Source: Leptospirales bacterium (lineage in GTDB: Bacteria > Spirochaetota > Leptospiria > Leptospirales > Leptonemataceae). Taken from it: 64,000 nt of DNA. The number at the start of each line of letters is the position of its first letter. The stretch's first letter is position 1. Shown here one piece after another: positions 20,361-50,101 of this stretch. The position numbers and the translations under genes were made by a program. The notes under the pieces are model-generated. The model saw only the letters and a program-made list of their open reading frames with translations, did not search any database and had not been told where the DNA came from. The stretch lies in the NCBI GenBank assembly GCA_019694685.1, contig JAIBBM010000007.1:51750-115749 (forward strand), in the 5' to 3' direction.

Positions 20361-21005
20361 ATGGAACGTTTGACAGATCGCCTCACGCAGCAGGTTTTGC
20401 GCGATTTCGCCCGGATTGGACGATCGGCGTCCTTCGCGCGCGGCCAGACCGTATTTCACGACGGTGATCCTTATCGCGGGCCCTATATGGTCTCTAGCGG
20501 CAAGTTCAAAATCTGCAACGTCAATGAAGAAGGCAAAGAAGTCATCATAAGCATCTTCGGCGAAGGCGAATGGATCGCGGCTCCTCCGGTTTTCGCGGAT
20601 ACTCCCCGCTATCATGCTGAGTGCATCGCTCTTGAGGAGGGGGACCTCTTGCTCTTTCCATGCGCGGAGCTGCGAAGTTATCTACTGCAACACTCAGAGG
20701 TGATGTTTGAATTTGCACGGATGATTGCGAGCACCACTCTTCAGTTCCGCGAAAGACTTCGCGCTCTGACTTTGCTCAACGTCCAGCAGCGTCTTGAAAG
20801 TTTTCTGTCAGAGCTTGGTGCAAGAAAGCAGGCTGTGGCTCTGCCTTTGCCCAAGAATCAAATTGCGTCTCTCATTGGTTCGACTCCGGAATCGGTGAGT
20901 CGCGCATTTCGGATACTTGTGGATGAAGGAAAATTGAAAGTAGATGGTGAGAGATATCACCTTGAAGGTTCCGGCGGAAGTAAAGCAGACGCCGCTTCTG
21001 TATAA
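20361..21005 (+). CDS. Crp/Fnr-family transcription regulator
   Basis: 214 residues: a cyclic-nucleotide-type beta-barrel (1-120), a dimer helix, and a winged HTH (155-205) with recognition helix STPESVSRAFRIL. In the phosphate-binding cassette the usual Arg-Ser/Thr after the GE motif reads PRYHAECIA: Arg is kept but the Ser/Thr is Tyr, and the helix is lengthened, so cAMP binding is uncertain. No Cys cluster for an iron-sulfur centre is present. It is the only such regulator in the window and thus a candidate, but unproven, reader of cAMP made by the BLUF cyclase at 34.2 kb. Confidence 0.9.
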   Translation: MERLTDRLTQQVLRDFARIGRSASFARGQTVFHDGDPYRGPYMVSSGKFKICNVNEEGKEVIISIFGEGEWIAAPPVFADTPRYHAECIALEEGDLLLFPCAELRSYLLQHSEVMFEFARMIASTTLQFRERLRALTLLNVQQRLESFLSELGARKQAVALPLPKNQIASLIGSTPESVSRAFRILVDEGKLKVDGERYHLEGSGGSKADAASV

Positions 21006-33337: not shown

Positions 33338-34132
33338 TTAACGTGCCTTTTTGTTCTTCTTTCTCATGCTCATCCCGAATCCACCAAAGCGAATCTTGAT
33401 CTTCGGGTTTCGTGCGAGGATGGCGCTTTCGAGTGCTTTGACTTTTTTTTCCGGCTGCTCCAGGACTACTGATATCGAAATCCCTATGTACTTTCCTGAT
33501 TCTACTTCGCGAAGGAGATCATTCTCAGGTAAGTTGCCGGTATACCAGGCAGAGATTCCCCGACTGCGTAAAACTGCGTAATGCAGGAGGCTACTCAGAT
33601 CGTGCGGATCTCCAGGAAATGTGGTTACAAGCCATCCCGGTTTCGCGTGAGGAGGAAACTTTTCAATCTTCGCGAATATGTATCCGTGAAGCCAGTGTGA
33701 AAATGCATGCTCCTCCGGGACACTGAGTAGATTTTCTTCCCATGCCTTGCCTACGAGAATTACTGCCGGTCCGATAATGTGGTGCACCCATGCCGAGAAG
33801 GACCCCTTGAGTTGCTTGTCGAAAATCTTTTCTACACTGTCGTAATCATGGGCCTGCAAAAGCTTTATGAATGTTAACTGTTCCTCTGAAAAGGTTGTGA
33901 CTTTGTCCTTCAGCAGGGCTTCGCGTCCCAGAGCCATGATCTTTTTGAGCTTCTGCGATTGATCGAGTCGCATCTGGATGCTTTTGAGTACAAAGTAATC
34001 ATCATTCGAATAATGCCAGTAACCATTCGGTGTGCGAAACGGTCGTAGAATGTTGTATCTTTCCTGCCACTTACGAATGGCGTGCGAAGCGATTCCTGTC
34101 ATTTTACTCAGATCTTTGATCAGATAGTCCAT
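33338..34132 (-). CDS. MerR-type regulator with cobalamin-binding domain (CarH/LitR-like)
   Basis: 264 residues. Residues 1-70 are a MerR winged HTH (IASHAIRKWQERYNILRPFR). Residues about 80-160 form the helical bundle and 165-264 the B12-binding Rossmann domain. Positions known to matter in Thermus CarH are recognisable at the same numbers: Trp131-x9-Glu141-His142 and lower-ligand-type His177 in GDPHDLS. The residue corresponding to CarH His132, which ligates cobalt after photolysis, is Glu here, and the Gly of DxHxxG is Ser. It likely binds adenosylcobalamin and represses DNA in the dark. Divergent from a BLUF cyclase across a shared operator. Confidence 0.9.
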   Translation of the reverse strand: MDYLIKDLSKMTGIASHAIRKWQERYNILRPFRTPNGYWHYSNDDYFVLKSIQMRLDQSQKLKKIMALGREALLKDKVTTFSEEQLTFIKLLQAHDYDSVEKIFDKQLKGSFSAWVHHIIGPAVILVGKAWEENLLSVPEEHAFSHWLHGYIFAKIEKFPPHAKPGWLVTTFPGDPHDLSSLLHYAVLRSRGISAWYTGNLPENDLLREVESGKYIGISISVVLEQPEKKVKALESAILARNPKIKIRFGGFGMSMRKKNKKAR

Positions 34133-34140
34133 TGAGCTTC

Positions 34141-34169
34141 AGTATACAGTTGCTGCGTTTCTTTGTCTA
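34141..34169 (-). promoter_or_regulatory. Promoter of the CarH-like gene
   Basis: On the minus strand TAGACA (34169-34164), 17 bases, TATACT (34146-34141): each hexamer matches 5 of 6 consensus bases. The ATG lies at 34132. The -35 hexamer is wholly inside one arm of the inverted repeat at 34162-34193, so a dimer bound there would block this promoter. Confidence 0.6.
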
Positions 34170-34193
34170 ATGTTTTTAGAATCATTGGACAAA
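34162..34193. promoter_or_regulatory. Inverted-repeat operator between CarH-like and BLUF-cyclase genes
   Basis: Arms TTTGTCTAATG (34162-34172) and CATTGGACAAA (34183-34193) match at 10 of 11 positions around a 10-base AT-rich centre. Each arm contains a -35-like hexamer facing outward: TAGACA leftward, TGGACA rightward. The rightward one has a weaker -10 (GATGAT, 34209-34214) at 17 bases. Position between a MerR-type regulator and its divergent neighbour makes autoregulation plus control of the cyclase the simplest reading. Confidence 0.65.
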
Positions 34194-34228
34194 AAATGGA
34201 TGGCGATTGATGATCCTTCTGCCTCCTT

Positions 34229-35293
34229 ATGGACATGAAGCGGCTCACGTACATCAGCAACTTTTCGCAACCCCTCGCGCGAAATGAAATTGAACGAATC
34301 GGCGAGGTGTCTGTCAGGAACAATGCGCGCGACGGCCTTACAGGAGCCCTATTCTGTTTCCATGATGTCTTCTATCAGGTCATAGAAGGCGAAGAGCAGG
34401 CCATTGAGCGCTGTTATTCGAGGATTCTGAAAGACTCCAGGCACAAAGATATCTTCTGTTTGAAAGTGGAGCAGGGGGTTTCGTCTCGCATGTACGGAGA
34501 CTGGGCCATGAAAACCGTGATTCTGGAGGAATCGGGCGAAGCAATCCTCGTGGCTCTCCGAAACATGATGGACGGTCTCTCTTCCACGCATCGTATACTG
34601 GAGCGTTATGCGCCAGCGGAGATTCTGCAAACCATGCAGAAGGGCAGAAATCCTTTGAGTGAAAACTCGAGCATGACGGAGAGAGTCGTGATATTTGCAG
34701 ATATTCTGGCCTCCACTACTTTAACGGAGGTTCTGCCGGCCGAAACTATGGCGCTGTTGCTGGCAGATTACTATGAGATTGCGAATGCAGCCATTGTCGA
34801 ATCCGGCGGCACTATTTCAAAGCTCACTGGAGATGGCTTGATGGCTCATTTCGAAACGGGCAAGGCGGACTCGGCCCTGGACGCGAGCATTCGCATCATT
34901 CATAGAATCAACGACCTTCGAAGCCGCGCAGAATCTCATGACCCTCGAAAGTTCCTGTACTCCGGAATTGGAATTTCCGCGGGCCGGGTGCTGGAAGGAA
35001 GCATTGGTTCGGATCTGCGAAAGGATTACACTTTGCTTGGCGACCCGGTGAATTCCGCGGCCAGGCTTGAATCTGTAACCAGGAAGACCGGTCATGCGAT
35101 TGTATTTGATTCGCGCTTTCGCTCCTTATTGCGCAAGGAACGCACACTCAAGAAGCTCGGGCGTTATTTACCCAAAGGAAAAACGGATCAACTGCAGATA
35201 TTTACGATTCCAGAAGACGCAATCAAATTCCACATAACGTCAGAGAGTCTACGCAAATCCATTCAAAGCCTCTCTGAACCGGCACGCTTGTGA
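34229..35293 (+). CDS. Photoactivated adenylyl cyclase (BLUF + class III cyclase)
   Basis: 354 residues. Residues 1-100 are a BLUF flavin domain with Tyr8, Asn32, Gln50 and Met94 matching the flavin-contact residues of Beggiatoa bPAC shifted by one. After a helical linker, residues 150-345 form a class III cyclase with metal-binding Asp158 (IFADIL) and Asp202 (LTGDGL), adenine-selecting Lys198, Thr in YTLLGDPVN, and the transition-state Asn/Arg in NSAARLE. The whole chain aligns by eye with bPAC. It should make cAMP under blue light. ATG at 34229 or 34235 both give the expected N-terminus. Homologues have been described in Leptonema and Turneriella. Confidence 0.95.
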   Translation: MDMKRLTYISNFSQPLARNEIERIGEVSVRNNARDGLTGALFCFHDVFYQVIEGEEQAIERCYSRILKDSRHKDIFCLKVEQGVSSRMYGDWAMKTVILEESGEAILVALRNMMDGLSSTHRILERYAPAEILQTMQKGRNPLSENSSMTERVVIFADILASTTLTEVLPAETMALLLADYYEIANAAIVESGGTISKLTGDGLMAHFETGKADSALDASIRIIHRINDLRSRAESHDPRKFLYSGIGISAGRVLEGSIGSDLRKDYTLLGDPVNSAARLESVTRKTGHAIVFDSRFRSLLRKERTLKKLGRYLPKGKTDQLQIFTIPEDAIKFHITSESLRKSIQSLSEPARL

Positions 35294-49639: not shown

Positions 49640-50101
49640 TTATTTAGAAGGGAAAAGGCTTCTGATCTTCTCTCTACGAAAATCAAAGATGGCGCGAAGA
49701 CGCGGCTTCACAATGATCGCGTGAGCTATCTTTCCTAGAATTCCAAACGGCAGGGCATAGGTTACGATGTCTGTTACTTCAGTAGACGCTCCTTTTGCCG
49801 CGAAATGATGTTCATGATGCCAGATCTTGTAGGGTCCGATTCTTTGCTCGTCCACGAAATATTCTCCTTCGCGAACATGAGATATTTCCGTAACCCAGGT
49901 CAGAGGAATGCCGAATAACGGTTTTACAATGTATGTGATCATCAAGCCGGGGTAGATTTTCTCCGGAGGATTCCCCTGAATATCAAAACCGATTCCAGGA
50001 GGAGTGATTGTCTTGAGGTTTTCCGGGCGTGAGAAAAAATCCCATGCTTCTGCTTGAGATATAGGGATGAGTTCCGTTTCGCGCAGAATGTGAATTGCCA
50101 C
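49640..50101 (-). CDS. SRPBCC-family ligand-binding protein
   Basis: 153 residues with the SRPBCC/cyclase-like pattern: N-terminal beta strand and helix (AWDFFSRPENLKTITPP), a central beta sheet and a long C-terminal helix (RLRAIFDFRREKIRSLF). Such small START-like proteins hold hydrophobic ligands or act as coenzyme Q-binding or cyclase proteins. It is convergent with the hotdog gene and no neighbour identifies its ligand. Confidence 0.85.
   Translation of the reverse strand: MAIHILRETELIPISQAEAWDFFSRPENLKTITPPGIGFDIQGNPPEKIYPGLMITYIVKPLFGIPLTWVTEISHVREGEYFVDEQRIGPYKIWHHEHHFAAKGASTEVTDIVTYALPFGILGKIAHAIIVKPRLRAIFDFRREKIRSLFPSK

Follow-up and report, generated by a model that had tools for sequence, protein, structure and literature searches.

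A 64-kb stretch of DNA from a Leptospirales bacterium (hereafter the window; contig 42 in a 134-contig genome of 4.3 Mb, G000) carries, head to head, the genes for a cobalamin-domain regulator of the MerR type and for a predicted photoactivated adenylyl cyclase (PAC), with an inverted repeat between them that recurs upstream of homologues of both. We propose that a B12-binding repressor, released by light, uses this dyad to silence its own gene and the blue-light cyclase gene in the dark, a reading to which we give a probability of about two in three. In the dark, the regulator bound to adenosylcobalamin (AdoCbl) would occupy the dyad at 34163-34192 and block both divergent promoters. On exposure to green or blue light, the cobalt-carbon bond of the bound AdoCbl would break and DNA binding would weaken; RNA polymerase would then gain both promoters, and the cyclase thus made would form cyclic AMP (cAMP) only in blue light. 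The outcome would be a coherent two-pigment feed-forward (AND) circuit. The same repressor may also govern two further sites at a lipid-modification cluster, which would make the cyclase one branch of a photo-oxidative-stress regulon.

The divergent genes and their intergenic dyad

The two genes are divergent, start to start, with 96 bp between them. This interval holds the predicted operator, a 30-bp inverted repeat of the form TTGTCTAATG-N10-CATTGGACAA (34163-34192) that recurs at conserved upstream sites in relatives; it begins 30 bp from the regulator ATG and finishes 36 bp from the cyclase ATG. Each arm includes a TnnACA half-site, the two lying in inverted order, and TnnACA is also the core of the CarH repeats described elsewhere (PMC9304148; papers are cited here by PMC number, each for the excerpts that were available). 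A consensus scan gave one predicted sigma70 promoter each way, TAGACA-N17-TATACT for the regulator (34141-34169, minus strand), with its -35 in the left dyad arm, and TGGACA-N17-GATGAT for the cyclase (34186-34214, plus strand), with its -35 in the right arm; the shuffled region yields 0.6 such promoters on average. Because both predicted -35 hexamers lie in the dyad arms, binding should repress both genes. Known CarH operators also embed the -35 (PMC9304148), as does the dyad, with promoters and operator here themselves predicted. The dyad scores 27.9 with the matrix described below, a value equalled by none of 2000 dinucleotide shuffles, and it is the sole site of its kind with at least 15 bits within the window. 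The head-to-head arrangement that a sequence-only reading of the window had described is real, and the dyad between the genes is beyond chance.

The regulator (33338-34132, minus strand) is a 264-residue protein placed in the LitR/CarH family by Pfam, PDB sequence and fold comparison. It has a MerR helix-turn-helix (HTH) domain (residues 3-66), a four-helix B12-binding domain (90-149) and a C-terminal Rossmann-like half with His177. Pfam matches are to MerR_1 (PF13411, E 1.6e-10) and B12-binding_2 (PF02607, E 9.1e-6), with nothing for PF02310 at 1e-3. The top PDB sequence match is Thermus CarH/LitR (3whp, E 1.2e-21), and a fold search with the AlphaFold model (mean pLDDT 90.4, pTM 0.70) placed Thermus thermophilus CarH (TtCarH; 5c8e/5c8d) on top, with a full-length TM of 0.56 over 258 aligned columns and a cobalamin-domain TM of up to 0.72 normalised by target length. 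Trp131, Glu141, His142 and His177, named in the sequence-only reading, are all present (including the Wx9EH pattern). Across the 35 aligned regulators, the window's included, Glu141 and His177 are conserved in every row and Trp131 and His142 in 34; this alignment omits 13 of 28 regulator matches from one search, and the regulators of G006, G014, G015, G017, G019, G021, G039, G044 and G046. In TtCarH, Trp131 and Glu141 touch the adenosyl group (PMC10442372). A cob(I)alamin adenosyltransferase, which makes AdoCbl, is encoded in the same genome. The regulator is likely a class I, B12-dependent member of the LitR/CarH family that would bind AdoCbl and let go of DNA in light. In the regulator tree the three g1 regulators are not recovered as a clade, and metagenomic rows are intermixed.

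The cyclase gene (34229-35293, plus strand) encodes a bPAC-type protein of 354 residues, with a BLUF domain (residues 3-95; 34235-34513, plus strand; Tyr8, Gln50, Met94) and a class III cyclase domain (residues 153-321; 34685-35191, plus strand; Asp158, Lys198, Asp202, Thr268). It matches Pfam BLUF (E 5.9e-25) and Guanylate_cyc (E 1.6e-10), and bPAC structure 5m27 at E 1.9e-86 across residues 3-339, that is, by full-length homology. All seven residues, which we take to serve the flavin (Tyr, Gln and Met) and the cyclase reaction (Asp, Lys, Asp and Thr), are invariant in 18 aligned cyclases including the window's, in keeping with the earlier bPAC-type identification. The alignment and the cyclase tree omit three of 21 genes, those of G004a and G035, which have an in-frame stop, and that of G007, which has an internal deletion. 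The protein is the sole BLUF match in its genome and is predicted to make cAMP under blue light, which may act through some of the 25 cNMP-binding domain matches in that genome.

Several observations touch on the cyclase and its homologues. A CRP-like regulator gene (cNMP_binding and HTH_Crp_2; 20361-21005, plus strand), 13 kb from the cyclase, encodes a possible cAMP target. The cyclase copies in L067 (G035) and L068 (G004) hold one in-frame TGA each, and the dyad precedes neither. The G007 open reading frame (ORF; L071:6315-7100) encodes 261 residues and is without the stretch matching window residues ~109-195, including the first metal Asp158; this shortened form contrasts with LiPAC of Leptonema illini, probably the same species, which is cited as a photoactivated cyclase.

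Recurrence of the dyad among relatives

The sequence-only reading had derived a feed-forward circuit from the divergent arrangement. We surveyed 48 genomes of the class, counting cyclases at E <= 1e-50 and CarH homologues at better than 1e-20. The cyclase is present in 19, and a CarH homologue in 18 of these 19 as against 10 of the other 29, one weak match being excluded (Fisher 2.5e-5, uncorrected for kinship); in the remaining cyclase-bearing genome no CarH homologue was found. The divergent pair is conserved only narrowly. The genes are head to head in three of the 19 genomes, all of the window's genus (G000 and G001 with the regulator, G002 with an X241-CarH2 operon); loci L052 and L053 show this arrangement in the window's genus. 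In G004 and G020 (L069 and L070, near-identical loci of another genus) the cyclase ends a CarH-AmOx-DUF1365-CFA-Y236-Y186-cyclase run. In 13 genomes CarH lies elsewhere, as in G032, where the two are 1.15 Mb apart on one contig; in drafts it is mostly on another contig, so the two may still be distantly linked in such genomes. Cyclase homologues in a Saprospiraceae and a Bacteroidia metagenome-assembled genome have no CarH in their flanks (up to ~8 kb) and no site, and the flanks examined around remoter cyclase matches (L162-L172) hold no CarH homologue at blastp E <= 1e-5. Conserved adjacency, which holds in one genus, was accordingly rejected as the main evidence.

Two side observations concern these loci. 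G002 (L052, L072) has two CarH paralogues with a dyad at both, one in a window-like position beside 672-residue and 344-residue ORFs of matching size but without a cyclase, the other within the lipid operon that faces the cyclase. In the window itself, a 153-residue protein with no Pfam match (49640-50101, minus strand) is 52% identical to Y186, whose gene in G004 lies between the cyclase and genes of the CarH cluster.

The transcriptional link implied by the feed-forward interpretation is upheld by the dyad rather than by the gene order. The form TGTC-N21-GACA (N20 in the window) stands directly before 12 of 24 CarH genes inspected and at the operon head in others. Searched as an exact pattern on both strands of the 48 genomes, it gave 56 matches, compared with 19 for a reversed control. 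These 56 reduce to 37 distinct sites: CarH, lipid-cluster or cyclase genes account for 17, other named genes for three, and the remaining 17 lie elsewhere. At the five of these last that were inspected (L134, L138-L141) we found no related gene, and Pfam gives no match for either of two ORFs adjoining the L134 site. Given the control matches and the sites elsewhere, single matches were judged unreliable and the exact-pattern counts were dropped as evidence; we therefore used a matrix, with a background and shuffles.

This two-arm matrix was trained on 12 sites before CarH genes or operons, none of them directly upstream of a cyclase. The sites were chosen by eye; that of G004 heads the operon ending in the cyclase, and those of G004 and G020 are near-copies. 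We scored 200 bp upstream and 30 bp inside each of 21 cyclase genes, 20 found at E <= 1e-50 in class genomes plus the shortened G007 gene. Eleven of these regions score 17.1-29.5, and dinucleotide shuffles match each of the eleven scores in 0 to 3 of 2000 cases. The background comprised 237 regions upstream of other genes, taken from the window and 40 loci (ORFs of at least 150 residues from a simple caller, more than 450 bp from the start of regulon-type genes); none reaches 17 and the maximum is 16.1. The first background held loci chosen for the presence of the pattern, and the 237-region count comes from a repeat without them; the 17-bit threshold was chosen after the scores were seen.

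Six of the eleven are among the 16 cyclase genes that do not adjoin CarH, in G047, G046, G045 and G032 (family f3) and in G014 (18.4) and G010 (17.1), the last two being the weakest; four of the six are found by the exact pattern too. Fisher's test of cyclases against background gives 5e-14 overall, 2e-8 for unlinked genes and 1e-4 for these with the four f3 genomes counted once. In both operon-arrangement genomes an additional dyad immediately precedes the cyclase; the two, which are near-copies, score 18.5 and 19.2. Of 15 CarH genes outside the training set, 11 are preceded by a site scoring 17 or more, either at the gene itself or at the head of its operon; in G047 the contig starts inside the gene upstream of CarH, and the operon head falls outside the sequence. 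Because the dyad precedes six of the 16 cyclase genes not adjoining CarH, the predicted link between regulator and cyclase outlives the gene arrangement, and as evidence this is stronger than adjacency. The cyclase tree, with five changes and weak deep forks, does not show that the cyclase site arose only once. The G032 gene, with its dyad upstream, is probably that of TpPAC of Turneriella parva, an active tool protein (PMC6218482).

Proposed release by light and competing explanations

Release by light is the weak step of the model. CarH is released by light (PMC4557120, PMC9304148). Several of our observations weigh against the model. The regulator has Glu at position 132, where TtCarH has His, which in light becomes the upper ligand of the cobalt. 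Across the 35 aligned regulators this position is Glu in 28, Gln in three, Ser in two and Asn and Cys in one each, and never His. The TtCarH H132A variant mostly remains a tetramer under light (PMC10442372), although an earlier report cited in the same paper did see its dissociation; other light-responsive family members also lack this His, and the position varies (PMC11796333). The regulator scores 89 bits against a cut-off of 400 for NCBIfam NF052513, the CarH equivalog, which is still its best family match, and because it misses the cut-off we file it under the LitR/CarH family and not as a CarH orthologue. The dyad is inverted, as opposed to the tandem 11-bp direct repeats of the Thermus and Bacillus operators (PMC9304148); myxobacterial CarH operators have been called plastic in the same source. 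The TGTC to GACA spacing is 20 bases in the window and 21 in most other dyads, and the predicted cyclase promoter matches the consensus at nine of 12 positions, with a weak -10. No site (scores of at most 9.4) was found before the cyclase genes of G003, G004a, G006, G007, G013, G015, G016, G019, G021 and G035, the CarH genes of G006, G010 and G013 (three of 27 examined) have no clear site, and the 17 of 37 exact-pattern sites that lie elsewhere are unexplained.

Since His132 is absent from all 35 regulators, release may differ from that of Thermus CarH, possibly with the cyclase as an anti-repressor. The regulator would then repress through the dyad, B12 would have no more than a structural or metabolic role as ligand, and the BLUF cyclase, under blue light, would be both target and trigger. 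This residue is needed for light-driven dissociation of the TtCarH tetramer, and the large persistence of the H132A tetramer in light makes a BluF-like or LOV-like role for the cyclase a live rival; flavin photoreceptors acting as anti-repressors beside MerR/LitR regulators are known (PMC3509220, PMC9758184), and regulator and cyclase genes are linked in five of the 19 cyclase-bearing genomes. However, in ten genomes of the class CarH occurs without a full-length cyclase. Of these, eight were scanned (G007, G017, G018, G025, G028, G031, G037 and G043, seven of which gave training sites; G039 and G044 lay outside the scan), and in every one the dyad stands at CarH or at the head of its operon, so release cannot generally require the cyclase. 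All 35 regulators keep Glu141 and His177, and E. coli BluR aligns with the regulator over the HTH region only. We consider this explanation unlikely.

Much the same low probability attaches to a regulator that senses B12 level or redox at the dyad, not light, and couples the cyclase to B12 status or oxidative stress. The missing His132 favours it, as does a MerR-like light regulator of Vibrio cholerae modelled as responsive to reactive oxygen species (PMC5241685), the photochemistry of our regulator being presumed. Against it, the adenosyl-contacting Trp131 and Glu141 are kept, and the UfaD/O/M-like targets, with the cyclase, resemble the light-induced regulons of LitR, of which UfaM and FolE are members; the GTP cyclohydrolase I and UvrA-like targets, each in a single relative, resemble them too. 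Least probable, in our estimate, is that adjacency and dyad are incidental, with the site serving the regulator gene alone and the cyclase promoter independent. The ten cyclase genes without a dyad and the restriction of linkage to two genera would fit such a coincidence, but not the dyads directly before cyclases apart from CarH in six genomes, nor the extra dyad just before the cyclase in both operon-arrangement genomes. A dark repressor that is released by light remains our preferred reading.

Known systems and a wider predicted regulon

Pairing of a flavin photoreceptor with a MerR/LitR repressor is already known from E. coli BluR-BluF and Pseudomonas PmSB-LOV-PmlR2 (PMC3509220, PMC9758184), and to that extent the earlier suggestion that the gene pair is without precedent goes too far. 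Its narrower part stands, limited to the open-access literature (titles and starts of abstracts among the papers listed), where we found neither LitR/CarH control of a photoactivated cyclase nor a transcriptional regulator of any PAC gene. What seems new here is a LitR/CarH-type regulator that keeps the B12 ligands and is predicted to control a cAMP-producing photoenzyme. Class I CarH/LitR of T. thermophilus and Myxococcus xanthus is an AdoCbl-dependent dark repressor of carotenoid genes, and the window's regulator resembles it in its MerR HTH and cobalamin domains, in Trp131, Glu141, His142 and His177, in a predicted operator over the -35 and in TnnACA half-sites. It differs in the absence of His132, in an inverted dyad where class I has tandem direct repeats, and in predicted targets that are lipid-modification genes and a cAMP photoenzyme (carotenoid genes not having been searched for).

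In E. coli, too, a MerR-like repressor gene (BluR, or YcgE) adjoins a BLUF gene (BluF, or YcgF), and the BluR operator is a palindromic TGTAC...GTACA motif over the -35 and spacer (PMC3509220). BluF, however, has a degenerate EAL domain and acts as a protein anti-repressor, whereas the partner here is a cyclase; BluR is described as without ligand (PMC3509220), and the window's regulator keeps His177 and Glu141. In Pseudomonas mendocina, PmlR2-PmSB-LOV likewise joins a LitR-family repressor to a flavin photoreceptor. PmlR2 and P. putida PplR have a light-induced regulon with UfaM, FolE and photolyase and an operator TGTACA-N12-TGTACA, but class II LitR retains, of the B12-binding region, just the four-helix domain, and the partner is a short LOV anti-repressor (PMC9758184). 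The cyclase itself is like bPAC, OaPAC and TpPAC in joining BLUF to a class III cyclase and in its catalytic and flavin residues; these three are known for their photochemistry and as tools.

The usual neighbours of CarH form a lipid cluster encoding a flavin oxidoreductase, DUF1365, CFA-type methyltransferases, MFS and DUF1295 proteins. In the window's genome, contig 38 carries such a cluster (DUF1295, MFS, FAD oxidoreductase, DUF1365 and two CFA-type methyltransferases, UfaD/UfaO/UfaM-like), with two dyads of 26.1 and 25.1 bits, before the DUF1295 gene and before the flavin oxidoreductase gene; no CarH gene lies within the 14 kb examined around it. Further dyads, marking possible members of a light regulon, stand before a fatty-acid desaturase gene (G031; L133:5244-5274), a UvrA-like gene (G016; L135:4987-5017) and the GTP cyclohydrolase I gene (G025; L136:5154-5184). 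In Rhodobacter sphaeroides, UfaO contains DUF1365 and with UfaM and UfaD makes furan fatty acids (PMC7380195), and the CarH-linked cluster shares the DUF1365 gene, CFA-type methyltransferases and flavin oxidoreductase with that system. There the product was studied in a chrR background, ChrR loss raising it (PMC7380195), whereas LitR/CarH-type control is predicted here. The PplR regulon of P. putida, which light induces, includes FolE and UfaM (PMC9758184). Apart from the cyclase, the predicted regulon resembles furan-fatty-acid and photo-oxidative-stress genes. Another likely cyclic-nucleotide enzyme is linked to it. A DUF5939-cyclase and its homologues (L069:7051-8967, L075:3840-5693; 36-38% identical) are found next to CarH clusters of two genera; in g2 the gene lies between those for MFS and CarH and shares their strand.

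A broader proposal, that the AND gate is class-wide, we advance tentatively, with doubt slightly outweighing belief. On it, a B12 photoreceptor (UV to green) would set the amount of cyclase and blue light its activity, cAMP would report light history together with present blue light, the operator would keep the wiring after the genes separate, and the B12 switch would work without the upper histidine. The missing His132 makes these proteins a natural test of the residues required by the CarH light switch. Photoactivated cyclases are widely used optogenetic tools, and host control of their genes is not described in the literature we found; the conserved operator-like sequence found upstream of cyclase genes, that of TpPAC probably among them, offers a candidate for their natural regulator. 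If the model is correct, cAMP would be tied to a photo-oxidative-stress (furan-lipid-like) gene set, and cobalamin and flavin photoreceptors would act in series, one sensor controlling the supply of another.

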